A stretch of DNA of 43,679 bases from Gemmatimonadota bacterium (lineage in GTDB: Bacteria > Gemmatimonadota > Gemmatimonadetes > Longimicrobiales > RSA9), in the NCBI GenBank assembly GCA_019347975.1, contig JAHWKI010000002.1, positions 1 through 43,679 on the forward strand, given 5' to 3'. This document shows, piece after piece, positions 1,863 to 43,679 of the stretch (the stretch's first letter is position 1; the number at the start of each line of letters is the position of its first letter). The notes beneath the pieces were generated by a model. That model did not search any database. It had not been told where the DNA came from and saw only the letters and a list, made by a program, of their open reading frames with translations. The position numbers and the translations under genes were made by a program.

Positions 1863-1897
1863 TTGACCGCCCGCCCCGGCCGCGCCTATCCTGGGCC
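1863..1897 (+). promoter_or_regulatory. Sigma70-type promoter predicting a leaderless mRNA
   Basis: TTGACC (1863-1868), an 18-bp spacer, TATCCT (1887-1892), then only five bases to the ATG at 1898. A transcript starting at the usual distance would begin at the A of the start codon. The gene has no Shine-Dalgarno sequence, which fits. The same layout recurs at 16230, 30002 and 42618. Confidence 0.6.
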
Positions 1898-3082
1898 ATG
1901 CCTATCCGACGAACGTCCCCCTCCGCCATGGCCGCGCTGCTGCTCCTGGCAGGTGCCGGTTGCGCCCATTCCCAGGCCGTCCCCTCCACGACGGAAAGGC
2001 CTCGCGCGCGCGACGCGGGCGTGCGCGTGGGCATCCTCCCTCTCGGGCCGCTGAACGCCATCACAGACGTCGCCGGCGTCCGCGTGGGGCAGACTACGGT
2101 GATGGAAGGGGACGCGGTGCGCACGGGTGTCACGGCGATCCTCCCGCACGGCGGAGACCTGTTCCGCGAGCGCGTCCCCGCGGCCATCGTGGTCGGCAAC
2201 GGGTTCGGCAAGCTGCTCGGCGTAACGCAGGTGCGCGAGCTGGGTGAGCTCGAGACGCCGGTCCTGCTGACATGCACGCTGTGTGTCTGGCGGGCGGCGG
2301 ACGGCATGGTCGGGTGGCTGCTGGCGAGACCCGGGATGGAGGAGGTCCGGTCCGTCAACCCGGTGGTGGGCGAGACGAATGACGGCTACCTGAACGACAT
2401 CCGCGCGCGCCCGATCCGGGCCGAGCACGTGATCGCCGCCCTGGAGGGCGCCACGGCGGGACCTGTCGCCGAGGGCAGCGTCGGCGCGGGGACGGGAACG
2501 GTGGCGTTCGGGTGGAAGGGCGGGATCGGGACGTCGTCCCGGCGCCTGCCGGTGTCGCTGGGCGGCTGGACCGTCGGCGTTCTCGTCCAGACCAATTACG
2601 GTGGTGTCCTGACCATCGCCGGCGCGCCCGTGGGGGTGGAGCTCGGCCGGTATCCGTTCCGGTCGGCGCTCGAGGCGGCGGTCCCGGAGCGGGACGGCGG
2701 GGATGGCAGCATCATGATCGTCGTGGCTACGGATGCGCCCCTCTCCTCCCGCACCCTGGAGCGGGTGGCGCAGCGCGCGCTGGCGGGACTCGCCCGGACG
2801 GGGTCCAGCATGAGCAACGGGTCGGGGGATTATGTGATCGCCTTCTCCACCGCCGGCTCCGTACGGCGTCGGGTGACGGAGGGCCCACGCACCGTCGAGG
2901 ACCTGCCGAACGACCTGCTCTCGCCGGTGTTCCTGGCCGCGGTCGAGGCTACGGAGGAGGCCATCTACAACTCGCTGTTCCGGGCCACGACGGTCACGGG
3001 CGCCCGCGGCACGGTGGAGGCCCTGCCGCTGGAAGAGACGCTGGCGATCCTCCGCGCGCACGGGGCGCTCCGGGTGCCCTAG
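1898..3082 (+). CDS. P1 family (DmpA-type, S58) aminopeptidase, exported
   Basis: A 394-residue Ntn-hydrolase-like peptidase of the DmpA/BapA family, which cleaves itself and then removes N-terminal residues from peptides or beta-peptides. The lipoprotein-like signal LLLAGAGC suggests an exported, membrane-anchored form. Family signatures are NDGYLND with the conserved Tyr164, GSVGAGTGTVAFGWKGGIGT, QTNYG with Asn233 (oxyanion), and GDGS, where Ser271 is the expected nucleophile and self-cleavage point, followed by VVATDAPL. The length fits the family. The start is fixed by the promoter five bases upstream. The next gene, same strand, begins 80 bases downstream. The substrate is unknown. Confidence 0.9.
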   Translation: MPIRRTSPSAMAALLLLAGAGCAHSQAVPSTTERPRARDAGVRVGILPLGPLNAITDVAGVRVGQTTVMEGDAVRTGVTAILPHGGDLFRERVPAAIVVGNGFGKLLGVTQVRELGELETPVLLTCTLCVWRAADGMVGWLLARPGMEEVRSVNPVVGETNDGYLNDIRARPIRAEHVIAALEGATAGPVAEGSVGAGTGTVAFGWKGGIGTSSRRLPVSLGGWTVGVLVQTNYGGVLTIAGAPVGVELGRYPFRSALEAAVPERDGGDGSIMIVVATDAPLSSRTLERVAQRALAGLARTGSSMSNGSGDYVIAFSTAGSVRRRVTEGPRTVEDLPNDLLSPVFLAAVEATEEAIYNSLFRATTVTGARGTVEALPLEETLAILRAHGALRVP

Positions 3083-14457: not shown

Positions 14458-15210
14458 TCACACGGCCTCCTCGAGGACCCCGCCGAAGCGGCGCTCACGG
14501 CCCCGGAACTCCTGGACGGCCCGCCTCAACTCGGTCTCCTCGAAATCCGGCCACAACGTCGGCGAGAAGAAGAGCTCGGCGTACGCGCATTCCCAGAGAA
14601 GGAAATCGCTCAGCCGCTGCTCACCGCCCGTCCGGATCAGGAGGTCGACATCACGGACCGGCATGCCGCCGCCCTCGGCGGCACCCATGCAGCTCCGGAA
14701 GGTCTCCCGACAGAAGGGAGCCGCCTCGCTGTCCGTGTCCGCGCAGCCCGCCGCCTGCTGCGCGGCCATGGCGGCGGCTCGAACGATGACGTCCCGGGCG
14801 GAGTAGTCGACCGCCAGCCGCAGGACGAGTCCGTCGTTCGCCGCGCTGGCCTCCTCCGCCCTACGGATCTCACGGACCAGACGCGCCGAGAGGCGGTCGC
14901 GCCGGCCCACCACGACCAGACGGACATTGTTGTCGATGAGGCGTTCGGTCTCGCGGCGGAGGTATTCCATGAAGAGCGTCATCACGCCGCGAACCTCGTC
15001 GCGGGGACGGCTCCAGTTGTCCGACGAAAACGCGTACAGGGTCAGCAGGCCGACGCCCGACACGGGGTCGGCGCACGCCTCGACCACACGGCGCACGGCC
15101 TTCGCACCCTCGCGGTGCCCCACTCCCCGGGGCATCCCGCGACGCCTCGCCCACCGGCCGTTGCCATCCATGATGATGGCGACGTGGAGGTCGGTCTCGG
15201 TTTCTCTCAT
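14458..15210 (-). CDS. uppS: Isoprenyl transferase (undecaprenyl diphosphate synthase family)
   Basis: A 250-residue cis-prenyltransferase that extends farnesyl diphosphate with isopentenyl diphosphate to make the C55 carrier lipid for peptidoglycan and LPS. Seen: [14 protein letters not shown] with catalytic Asp15, [13 protein letters not shown], and the C-terminal [20 protein letters not shown] with the Arg/Ser pyrophosphate ligands. A 20-25 residue stretch with two Cys (about 165-185) is an insertion before the last conserved block. Usual partners (cdsA, dxr, frr) are not next to it. Confidence 0.95.
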
Positions 15211-15262: not shown

Positions 15263-15628
15263 TCATTCGCGCACCGCCCGGATCAGCGCTTCCATGTGCG
15301 ACAGGTATCCTTCCAGTGCCACCCGTCCGTTCGGCGTAAGCCGGTACTCGGTCCGTGGCACCCGCCCCTGGTAGCCCTTGAGGCATTCCAGGTACCCCGC
15401 ATCCTCGAGCTTTCGCGCGTGCGCGCTCAGGTTGCCATCCGTCACTCCCAGTAGCGCCTTGAGATCGTTGAACGTCAGCGTTTCGTTCACCGCCAGCGCA
15501 CTGACGATCCCGAGCCTCACCCGCTCGTGGACCAGGCGGTCCAGGTCTCCCGGGGAGGCGTCCGCCAGCCCTGGTACGCCGGTCAGCCCAGACACCGGCT
15601 CCTCGTTCTGCGCCCGGGGCTTACCCAC
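15263..15628 (-). CDS. Winged-helix transcriptional regulator paired with a membrane protein
   Basis: A 121-residue winged-helix DNA-binding protein (HTH at about 45-80: [20 protein letters not shown], wing ...[14 protein letters not shown]). It resembles the small MarR/ArsR-like 'winged helix DNA-binding domain' regulators. The GTG start overlaps the stop of the membrane protein gene by eight bases, so the two are translated together. Such pairs often regulate their own promoter; the promoter at 16230 is the natural target. No effector-binding cysteines or ligand domain are visible. Confidence 0.85.
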
Positions 15629-16229
15629 CGTACCGCCTCCAGACGATCGCCCCGAAGATGATGTGCAGACCCCCGAGCCCCAGCCCCAGCAGCACCTCCC
15701 CCGTCACCGGCACCAGCAGCGCCACCGTACCGAGCAGGATGAACGCCGCCCCCATCAGGGGGATCGCCCGCACGGAGTACGCGCCGCCCGTCATCACCCC
15801 GGCGCCGTACAGGGATAGCCAGATCCCCGGGAGCAGGCCGTAGCTGCCGCCCAGCCAGATCGCCACCGTCAGCACCGCGCCTACCGCCATCGGGGGCGCG
15901 AAGGCCAGGATCAGCTTGCGTCCGGTGTGAGACCGAAGCGGCACCCCCATGGACCGCGCCTTCCGGGCCGTCATCCCCACCGACAGCACGCCCGCGAGGA
16001 GCAGCTCGGCCAGCCACACGGCGAACCACCGCTCCTGCGTAGGCTGCGCCGCCGCGATCAATGTCGCGCCGATCGCCGTGACGCCGACCAGCACGTACCC
16101 GGAGCCGGAGATGGCCGTGAAGGAGGTGGCCCGCTCCATGGTCTCGCGGATGAAGCGCAGGTTCTCGGCGGCGCGCTCGTGCAGCGCGAGGTCGGGCCGG
16201 TCAGCGGATTTCGACAGTCGAGCGTTCAT
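15621..16229 (-). CDS. Multi-pass membrane protein coupled to a winged-helix regulator
   Basis: A 202-residue protein with a polar N-terminal 30 residues (LHERAAENLRFIRETMERAT) and about six hydrophobic helices from residue 40 onward. I do not recognise a named family. The N-terminal stretch is reminiscent of membrane proteins found next to winged-helix regulators in Gemmatimonadota and Acidobacteria. It has no Shine-Dalgarno: the ATG lies seven bases after a strong -10 (see promoter), so the mRNA is predicted to be leaderless. The likely role is a stress- or ligand-responsive membrane component controlled by its partner. Confidence 0.8.
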   Translation of the reverse strand: MNARLSKSADRPDLALHERAAENLRFIRETMERATSFTAISGSGYVLVGVTAIGATLIAAAQPTQERWFAVWLAELLLAGVLSVGMTARKARSMGVPLRSHTGRKLILAFAPPMAVGAVLTVAIWLGGSYGLLPGIWLSLYGAGVMTGGAYSVRAIPLMGAAFILLGTVALLVPVTGEVLLGLGLGGLHIIFGAIVWRRYGG

Positions 16230-16266
16230 GGTGAGGAGGATAGCGGCTGCGCTCCTCCTCTGTCAA
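16230..16266 (-). promoter_or_regulatory. Consensus sigma70-type promoter predicting a leaderless mRNA
   Basis: On the minus strand: TTGACA (16266-16261), an 18-bp spacer, TATCCT (16242-16237), seven bases, then ATG at 16229. The -35 is a perfect consensus. This is the cleanest example of the layout shared with 1863, 30002 and 42618. Confidence 0.7.
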
Positions 16267-16296
16267 GTACTTTGCCCGGTAAAGGAGGCGCGGGCG

Positions 16297-29437: not shown

Positions 29438-30001
29438 TCACCGCAGCGGGTAGGACCAGCGGAATCCGACGAGAGCCGTAGTGACATCGGAGCCGCCCAG
29501 GCCACCCGCCGAAGGCGAGTTCCGGTAGGCGATCTCCACTCGAACGGCCGGCCAGCCGCCCCCTACGGGTACGTCCATGCCGGCCCGGCCGCCGAAGTGC
29601 CAGCGCGCGACCCAGCGGCCTTGCCCGGCGGGGGCGGAAGGGGCGTCGATGTCATGGAGTAACGCCCCGAGGAGGGGCCCGGCGTAGGGGGCCAGGAACC
29701 CTCGATAGCGCAGCTTGAAGCGATAGGCCAGAGTGCCCTCCGCCCAGGGGCCGGCGAGCTCGGAAGCTTCGCGGCCGGAGGCGGGCCAGGCGAACCCGAG
29801 GGCGACACCCATCCCGATGGGCAGGACGCGGGATCCCTCCAGCTGGACCGTCGCGGCGGTGCGCGGTGCGTCGCCCGGAACGGATGCGATCACCGCACCG
29901 GCGAGGGGGGAGACGTGGAGCCAGGCCGGCTCGTCGATCTGTGCGCTGGCCGGGGCGGCGAGCAGGAAGGCAAGGGCCGCGGCGCGGAGGGGGGTCGCCA
30001 T
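29438..30001 (-). CDS. Exported outer-membrane protein, hypothetical
   Basis: 187 residues with signal peptide (AALAFLLAAPASAQ), followed by alternating strands typical of a small barrel: HVSPLAGAVIASVPG, VALGFAWPASGRE, LAYRFKLRYRGFLAPYAGPL, ALVGFRWSYPLR at the end. No known family is named. There is no Shine-Dalgarno; the ATG at 30001 is six bases after a TATCCC -10, so the mRNA is predicted leaderless, and this supports the start. It lies divergently from the M1 peptidase gene. Confidence 0.75.
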   Translation of the reverse strand: MATPLRAAALAFLLAAPASAQIDEPAWLHVSPLAGAVIASVPGDAPRTAATVQLEGSRVLPIGMGVALGFAWPASGREASELAGPWAEGTLAYRFKLRYRGFLAPYAGPLLGALLHDIDAPSAPAGQGRWVARWHFGGRAGMDVPVGGGWPAVRVEIAYRNSPSAGGLGGSDVTTALVGFRWSYPLR

Positions 30002-36522: not shown

Positions 36523-36828
36523 CTATTCCCGCGTGTGCCGGTACATCAGCTCCATCACCTCGTCGTATGTGCGCTCCGCCGCCGCCGGATCCCCCGACCG
36601 CAGCGCGCCCGTGACGCAGTGCTGCAGATGGCTCCGCATCAGCAATTTCCCGACCCCGCGCAGCGCCGCGTGCACCGACGCCAGCTGCGTCAGGATGTCC
36701 GGGCAGTACCGGTCCTCCTCCACCATCCGGCCGAGCCCGCGGACCTGCCCCTCGATGCGGCTGAGCCGGGCGGCCACCTGCTTCCGGGTGTCCGGATCGT
36801 GAGCGAGCGCGTTGTGCTGATCGTCCAT
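36523..36828 (-). CDS. csoR: Copper-sensing repressor CsoR
   Basis: A 101-residue all-helical CsoR/RcnR-family repressor. The Cu(I) ligands have the family's exact spacing, Cys-x24-His-x3-Cys (RYCPDIL ... SHLQHC). [20 protein letters not shown] is the DNA-binding and tetramer region. Cu(I) binding should release it from DNA and switch on the copper operon. The Shine-Dalgarno GGAGG lies six bases before the ATG at 36828. A matching operator sits 15 bases further upstream. It could also sense another thiophile, but the ligand set and copA/copZ neighbours favour copper. Confidence 0.96.
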
Positions 36829-36842
36829 GTTCCCTCCATAGG

Positions 36843-36859
36843 ATACCCCCCTAGGGTAT
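36843..36859. promoter_or_regulatory. CsoR-type operator
   Basis: ATACCC-CCCTA-GGGTAT: a perfect 6-bp inverted repeat with G/C-rich centre, very close to known CsoR operators. It overlaps the -10 region of the csoR promoter and ends 15 bases before the csoR ATG. Confidence 0.85.
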
Positions 36860-36881
36860 AAAGAAGCGAGGCGCGCGTCAA
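36853..36881 (-). promoter_or_regulatory. csoR-copA-copZ promoter
   Basis: On the minus strand: TTGACG (36881-36876) with two possible -10s, TACCCT (17-bp spacer) or TATACC (15-bp spacer). Either overlaps the operator, so bound CsoR would block RNA polymerase. Confidence 0.6.
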
Positions 36882-42617: not shown

Positions 42618-42653
42618 TTGCCGCTCCCCCCCGGGCGCAAGTAGTTTCCTCCC
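42618..42653 (+). promoter_or_regulatory. Promoter predicting a leaderless porX mRNA
   Basis: TTGCCG (42618-42623), an 18-bp spacer, TAGTTT (42642-42647), six bases, then ATG at 42654. No Shine-Dalgarno is present. Same layout as 1863, 16230 and 30002. Confidence 0.5.
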
Positions 42654-43679
42654 ATGGACAAACGCATCCTCTGGGTCGACGACGAAGTGGAGCTCCTCGA
42701 GCCTCATCTGCTGTTTCTGCGACAGCGAGGCTACGACGTGGACACGACCACGAACGGGGATGACGCGCTGGAGCTCATGCGCCGCAGGCCTTACGACCTG
42801 GTCCTCCTGGACGAGCAGATGCCCGGCCGGCGGGGGCTGGAGGTGTTGGGGCTGATCCGAAAGGAGGAGCCGCACGCGCGGGTCGTCATGGTGACGAAGT
42901 CCGAGGAGGACCGAACGCTGGAGGAGGCGATCGGGCGGCGTGTGGACGAGTACCTGGTGAAGCCGGCGTCGCCACGGCAGGTGCTCTCGGTGGTGACGCG
43001 CCTGCTCGAGGGCTCACAGCTGAGGCAGCAGCAGGCGGCGCAGGACTTCGCGGCGCGCTTCCTGGCGCTGTCCCAGGAGAAGGACGCAGCGTCCACGTGG
43101 CAGGAGTACTTCACGCTGTATTCCGAGCTCACCGACTGGGACCTGCGGCTGACGGACGCCGGCGAGGCGGGGCTGGTCGACTCCGCCCGGTCGCTCATGG
43201 TCGACCTGCGCCGTGAGTTCGGCGCCTACGTCAGGAAGAACTACGCCTCGTGGGTGGCGCAGGTACCCGTGGAGGGGCTGGATCGGCCGCCGCTCAGCAC
43301 GGACGTCGTGCGCCGCTGGGTACGGCCGCGCATGGGGGAGGGGCCGCTGCTGTTCGTGATCATCGACTGCCTGCGGCTGGACCAGTGGCGGGCGATGCGG
43401 CCGCTGCTCGCGGACCTCTTCGACATCGACGAGGAGCTCTACGCGAGCATTCTGCCCACGGCGACGCCGTACTCCCGGAACGCCCTGTTCAGCGGCCAGT
43501 ATACGGACTCCATGGCGAAGGAACGCCCGGAGTGGTGGGCGACGGAGGAGGGGAGTCTCAACGCGTTCGAGGACGAGCTGTTCCGCGCGCACCTGAAGGA
43601 GATCACCGGACGTGACGTCCCGATCCACTACGAGAAGGTCTTCACGGACGAGACGGCCGACGACCTGATCGCCCGCGTG
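42654..43679 (+). CDS. porX: PorX-type response regulator with PglZ phosphatase domain (3' end cut)
   Basis: 342 residues visible, open to the window edge. A receiver domain starts RILWVDDEVELLEPH (acidic pocket Asp9/Asp10), with phospho-acceptor Asp53 in LLDEQMPG, Thr81 in VMVTKS and Lys103 in LVKPAS. A helical linker (about 105-210) with FALYxEL-like sequence (YFTLYSELTDWDL) follows, then a PglZ/alkaline-phosphatase-like domain: LLFVIIDCLRLDQW and ILPTATPYSRNALFSG, whose Thr is in the nucleophile place, then the cut. This is the architecture of PorX, which in Bacteroidota controls the type IX secretion system. No PorY kinase or T9SS gene is in the window, so its target here is unknown. Confidence 0.9.
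   Translation, partial: MDKRILWVDDEVELLEPHLLFLRQRGYDVDTTTNGDDALELMRRRPYDLVLLDEQMPGRRGLEVLGLIRKEEPHARVVMVTKSEEDRTLEEAIGRRVDEYLVKPASPRQVLSVVTRLLEGSQLRQQQAAQDFAARFLALSQEKDAASTWQEYFTLYSELTDWDLRLTDAGEAGLVDSARSLMVDLRREFGAYVRKNYASWVAQVPVEGLDRPPLSTDVVRRWVRPRMGEGPLLFVIIDCLRLDQWRAMRPLLADLFDIDEELYASILPTATPYSRNALFSGQYTDSMAKERPEWWATEEGSLNAFEDELFRAHLKEITGRDVPIHYEKVFTDETADDLIARV

Follow-up and report, generated by a model that had tools for sequence, protein, structure and literature searches.

The 43,679-nucleotide stretch of Gemmatimonadota DNA analysed here (the window) belongs to contig C110 of an assembly that is 87% complete and 3.6 Mb in size. Its minus strand carries a three-gene operon with a promoter and a palindrome in front of it:

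14458-15210, minus strand: cis-prenyltransferase (UppS family, PF01255) by profile match, third gene of the operon
15263-15628, minus strand: winged-helix regulator HTH_34 (PF13601) by profile match; its GTG start lies inside the 3' end of the membrane-protein gene
15621-16229, minus strand: membrane protein of 202 aa, with no Pfam/NCBIfam family and 191 relatives
16229, minus strand: predicted transcription start at the A of the ATG (leaderless), judged from the 7 nt between -10 and ATG
16237-16242, minus strand: -10 hexamer TATCCT, 18 bp from the -35
16261-16266, minus strand: -35 hexamer TTGACA; TTGAC after CAAAGTAC is conserved in orthologues
16265-16273, minus strand: AAAGTACTT, where the 3' half-site of the dyad leads into the -35 (CAAAGT-AC-TTGACA)
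16270-16284, minus strand: strict dyad core CTTTRNNNNNYAAAG, unique in the 3.6-Mb genome
16269-16285, minus strand: operator dyad 5'-CCTTTACCGGGCAAAGT-3', consensus ACTTTRYANTRYAAAGT, from 74/80 orthologous promoters and a symmetric weight matrix

The regulator scores 93.5 bits against PF13601 (curated cut-off 27, E 9e-27), and also matches the HTH_34/ArsR-MarR winged helix of PH1061 (PDB 1ub9; E 3e-6). The cis-prenyltransferase reaches 244 bits against PF01255 (cut-off 27) and 232 against TIGR00055 (cut-off 109.55), and is the one PF01255 match in its own 87%-complete genome. Profile searches assigned the membrane protein to no Pfam or NCBIfam family; its AlphaFold2 model (mean pLDDT 87) has six helices in addition to a conserved N-terminal one (RFIRETMERA), and since a fold search with this model returned nothing significant (best E 0.29), we claim no function from the fold. 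Among the 191 relatives found, 80 were kept and fetched; they come from MAGs titled Acidobacteriota and Gemmatimonadota, and one titled Chloroflexota. The HTH_34 gene adjoins the membrane-protein gene in 78 of these 80 loci, and the cis-prenyltransferase comes next in 58, as it does in the window. In a tree of the three operon proteins the window groups with Gemmatimonadota (support 92/88, not starred, on a long branch). At least eight nearly complete Gemmatimonadota relatives (G016, G033, G036, G045, G051, G057, G069 and G093) have a single PF01255 gene, located ~1.1 kb downstream of the operator or of its AAAGTACTTGAC half; in those eight, the operon would encode the sole UppS.

The original prediction placed four promoters of one leaderless-type form in the window, and TTGnnn, an 18-bp spacer, a -10 hexamer, 5-7 nt and the ATG can indeed be read at all four:

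1863-1900, plus strand: promoter and ATG of an S58/P1 peptidase (gene 1898-3082), TTGACC-N18-TATCCT-N5-ATG
16266-16227, minus strand: promoter and ATG of the membrane protein, TTGACA-N18-TATCCT-N7-ATG
30037-29999, minus strand: predicted barrel protein (gene 29438-30001), a weaker candidate, TTGCGT-N18-TATCCC-N6-ATG
42618-42656, plus strand: promoter and ATG of a PorX-like response regulator (gene from 42654), TTGCCG-N18-TAGTTT-N6-ATG

In profile searches the PorX-like protein shows Response_reg and PglZ domains, and the barrel protein gene matches no Pfam family; the -10 of the latter, TATCCC, is a near match and not TANNNT, and its gene start is the least certain of the four. A scan of the window for TTGNNN-N18-TANNNT-N5-7-start gave exactly three matches, namely the P1 peptidase, the membrane protein and porX, while first-order Markov shuffles (n=300) averaged 0.04 and never reached three. 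An Rfam search of the window at gathering thresholds found no matches, and thus no known RNA element explains the promoter sites.

To place these sites in their genomic context we used a sample of 1.33 Mb, window included, in which 1117 genes were called with a codon model. The pattern with N18 and an ATG occurs ten times in this sample, seven of them outside the window, and all ten matches lie at in-frame gene starts; other spacers from 8 to 29 give 0-3 matches each (17 gives 2, 16 gives 2 and 19 gives 0). The genome-wide enrichment which the original prediction anticipated is thus borne out. The window holds three of the ten strict promoters in 3.3% of the sampled length, far above its share. 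With the window excluded, TANNNT is found 6, 7 and 8 nt before an in-frame ATG 13, 18 and 11 times, against ~2 per position elsewhere, and no such peak is seen before GTG or out-of-frame ATG, where the profile is flat. The 51 genes with a TANNNT close to the start are heads of transcription units: their upstream neighbour is divergent in 47% of cases, compared to 25-28% for other genes, and in only 4% is there a same-strand gene within 30 nt upstream, compared to 36-38%. Two marks of a sigma70-type leaderless gene are present: a -10 box enriched over background ~12 nt upstream of the start, and a position at the head of a transcription unit, with no Shine-Dalgarno (SD) sequence at the membrane-protein gene and its orthologues. 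By the strict TANNNT, genes of this kind make up ~5% of those sampled, or ~4% after background. TANNNC at 6 nt before the ATG (14 vs ~5) indicates that degenerate boxes would add some genes, and for 729 of 957 sampled genes, whose start calls are rough, both a strong SD motif and a leaderless-type -10 are missing.

While the recurrent, ATG-specific leaderless-type sigma70 promoter at unit heads stands, two refinements of the original prediction do not. TATCCY had been taken as the preferred -10 of the lineage, yet TATCC[CT] occurs 0 times at distances of 0-12 nt before in-frame ATGs outside the window; TANCTT and TANNTT dominate there (21 cases of TANCTT at 5-9 nt), and the lineage -10 is TAnCTT. 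The 18-bp spacing, taken as a constant hallmark of leaderless genes, gives way to a general 17-18 bp that includes leadered promoters, and to 16-18 bp among the orthologues. Seven family genomes show the TTGA form 52 times at 18 bp (control 6), 51 times at 17 (control 3) and 3 times at 19 (control 3). For distal TANNNT, a TTG is found 12 times at 17 bp and 16 times at 18 bp, and for proximal ones 3 and 8 times. The 18-bp spacer is at most a preference of this genome (11 vs 4).

Leaderless genes with TANNNT ~12 bp upstream of the start have been described in Actinobacteria and Deinococcus-Thermus (PMC3160421, PMC3898074), and leaderless averages of 13% for Acidobacteria, 19% for Actinobacteria and 39% for Deinococcus-Thermus have been reported, with three Acidobacteria estimated at 9.7-19.4% (PMC3160421). 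The genes seen here resemble those of Actinobacteria and Deinococcus-Thermus in the class of -10, the distance to the ATG, the high-GC genome and in being a minority of genes, and differ in that this genome uses TAnCTT and ATG only. They also differ from the surveyed taxa in belonging to Gemmatimonadota, which are not named in PMC3160421, and in a share of ~4-5%, obtained by strict TANNNT and not by the other method of that survey. It is well supported by these counts that ~4-5% of genes here would have leaderless mRNAs, a known phenomenon; the pattern is thereby extended to a phylum outside the PMC3160421 survey, and testable gene lists result. Papers naming Gemmatimonas-type taxa together with leaderless mRNAs or start sites contained no promoter map.

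The same layout recurs in front of the orthologous operons. In an anchored set of 62 orthologues with a clear -35, a TANNNT is properly spaced from it in 51, compared to a mean of 5.4 and a maximum of 12 in a shuffled control. The spacing is 16 bp in 20, 17 bp in 21, 18 bp in 9 and 20 bp in 1, so that 50 of the 62 have a spacing of 16-18 bp. The -10 sits 6-7 nt from the start in 44 of these 51, and SD-like sequence is found in none of the 51 over the 13 nt scanned, ending 3 nt before the start. The remaining 11 of the 62 lack TANNNT at the right place, and some have weak variants such as CACTCT. Two genomes of the same family independently show the layout at the operon (G026:C39 and G065:C13). 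The leaderless-type layout predicted for the membrane-protein gene is conserved across phyla, and the mRNA from the 16230-16266 promoter very probably starts exactly at the start codon.

The original prediction was right about this layout, and overlooked a conserved operator at the same place. In 74 of the 80 orthologues, from Acidobacteriota and Gemmatimonadota, the 17-bp dyad ACTTTRYANTRYAAAGT is followed by AC and then by the -35 TTGACA, and in the window 2 bp separate the dyad from the -35. Nearly all 80 relatives have CAAAGTACTTGAC, or a sequence closely similar to it, upstream. AAAGTACTT occurs a single time in the whole genome and in 58 exact copies upstream of the 80 orthologues, 74 of which keep the dyad at 44-55% protein identity. 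In two loci (L155 and L166) the dyad is shifted downstream and extends into the space between the -10 and a TTTACA-like -35; as it is displaced and yet kept, it is conserved independently of the usual -35. Across the phylum, 135 of 298 genomes contain the extended operator, whereas the controls gave a total of 6 matches. The palindrome abuts the promoter of the regulator's own operon, the arrangement expected of an autoregulated winged-helix repressor. From these comparisons we strongly infer both leaderlessness and the operator at 16230-16285. In a literature search short of most subscription journals, no paper was found for the operator word CAAAGTACTTTG, nor for HTH_34 or PF13601, so that the literature covered records no DNA site for the family, and AAAGTACTT appeared only in four unrelated papers.

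Three other explanations have to be weighed. The region might be nothing more than an ordinary leaderless sigma70 promoter, whose -35 is preceded by sequence without any regulatory role. Leaderless promoters are common among high-GC bacteria (9.7-19.4% in the three Acidobacteria; PMC3160421), and the dyad, which occurs once, is missing at the other leaderless promoters of the genome. We nonetheless consider this very improbable, as the dyad is palindromic, genome-unique and present in 74 of 80 orthologues at 44-55% identity, and as L155 and L166 retain it despite its shifted position. Only slightly less improbable is a real promoter with a leadered mRNA that starts upstream and is translated by SD-less leadered initiation. 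The 729 of 957 genes lacking both a leaderless-type -10 and a strong SD do suggest that such initiation may be common, but an arbitrary leader would not keep the 6-7 nt from -10 to start seen in 44 of 51 orthologues, and the genome-wide TANNNT peak is specific to ATG.

The best of the three, though still unlikely, is that the HTH_34 protein activates the operon from its site just upstream of the -35. A regulator on a dyad ending 2 bp short of the -35 could contact sigma region 4. Activator-dependent promoters, however, usually have a poor -35, whereas here it is a near-perfect TTGACA in most orthologues, and the half-site extends (ACTT) into the -35. The position of the dyad next to a good -35 fits a repressor best, with activation as a possible second.

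We therefore favor autorepression, and consider it likely that 16230-16285 is a leaderless sigma70-type promoter with a built-in operator, serving a three-gene isoprenoid operon repressed by its own HTH_34 protein. What is read directly from the sequence is the promoter layout with its genome-wide enrichment, and the conservation of operator and operon. The promoter would be placed for transcription from the A of the ATG, with the operator built into its -35 end, where an HTH_34 dimer most likely binds the 17-bp dyad and covers the -35. The regulator would repress its own operon, as the dyad abuts a near-perfect -35 and the half-site extension covers it. We can only guess that release comes from a signal tied to isoprenoid or undecaprenyl-carrier status, or from the membrane protein, which might act as a sensor or modulator. 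Many relatives have a second site close to the start of the prenyltransferase gene, which may add control there.

The nearest functional parallel for the operator is CrtR of Corynebacterium glutamicum, a MarR-type, isoprenoid-pyrophosphate-responsive repressor of the crt operon that is negatively autoregulated and whose crtR transcript is reported to be leaderless (PMC5401885). The likeness is that of a winged-helix autoregulated isoprenoid repressor, which in our case is predicted from sequence. The targets of CrtR, however, are carotenoid genes from which crtR is divergently oriented, and a TTAA motif is required (PMC5401885), whereas here a single operon with a 17-bp ACTTT..AAAGT dyad encodes an HTH_34 protein, its membrane-protein partner and a cis-prenyltransferase. 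The conserved operator apparently marks an undescribed switch controlling a UppS-type (undecaprenyl-carrier type) isoprenoid synthase. It would give the widespread HTH_34 family of regulators both a DNA site and a likely isoprenoid regulon. This suggests a dedicated, cross-phylum regulator for the transcription of a UppS-type synthase; if that enzyme is the sole carrier-lipid synthase in these species, the switch would be a control point of cell-wall synthesis. We speculate further, in a proposal that may well prove wrong, that membrane protein, HTH_34 repressor and cis-prenyltransferase form an undescribed cross-phylum module that senses the carrier/isoprenoid pool and controls the essential carrier synthase via one 17-bp operator.

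Further copies of the operator give some indication of a regulon. In ~34 loci a second dyad follows after ~1 kb, at the prenyltransferase start or immediately ahead of it; in loci such as L256, L259 and L261 this site (CTTTATG..AAAG) includes an ATG that is in frame with the prenyltransferase. The second operator is absent at the prenyltransferase in the window and its own genome, so that co-regulation of the prenyltransferase there is predicted from operon structure. Among 28 strong HTH_34 matches from 27 genomes, chosen largely because they bear the operator, 21 have the strict operator ~0.5-1.1 kb upstream on the same strand. The additional targets come from ~60 loci. At L276:1500-2090 the operator directly precedes an isopentenyl-diphosphate (IPP) isomerase gene (NF002995 over cut-off, E 7e-54), and in L245 a geranylgeranyl-reductase-like gene (below cut-off). 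It is also found before DUF4153 membrane proteins of ~490 aa in L274, L282 and L283 (genomes G170, G242 and G024), and in L232/L265, L242/L275 and L250 it stands beside genes without a clear isoprenoid role. L274 has operator copies on both strands.

A second pair is present in the same genome on contig C240 (L055:18960-19940), where a 203-aa membrane protein (MQDSAREDLALIRRIMEE...) is followed by a strong HTH_34 regulator. A TATAAT lies within the variant site of its promoter, ACTCTATAATCCAGAGT-ACTCT, and the mRNA, which has a GGAGG site, is apparently leadered. There may thus be a family of such pairs whose half-sites have diverged (ACTCT vs ACTTT). Elsewhere in the window, at 36523-36875, TATACCCTAGGGGGGTATCC and a GGAGG site stand in front of the gene for a CsoR-type repressor (36523-36828), and TATACCCTAGGGGGGTATCC is probably the self-operator of this repressor.
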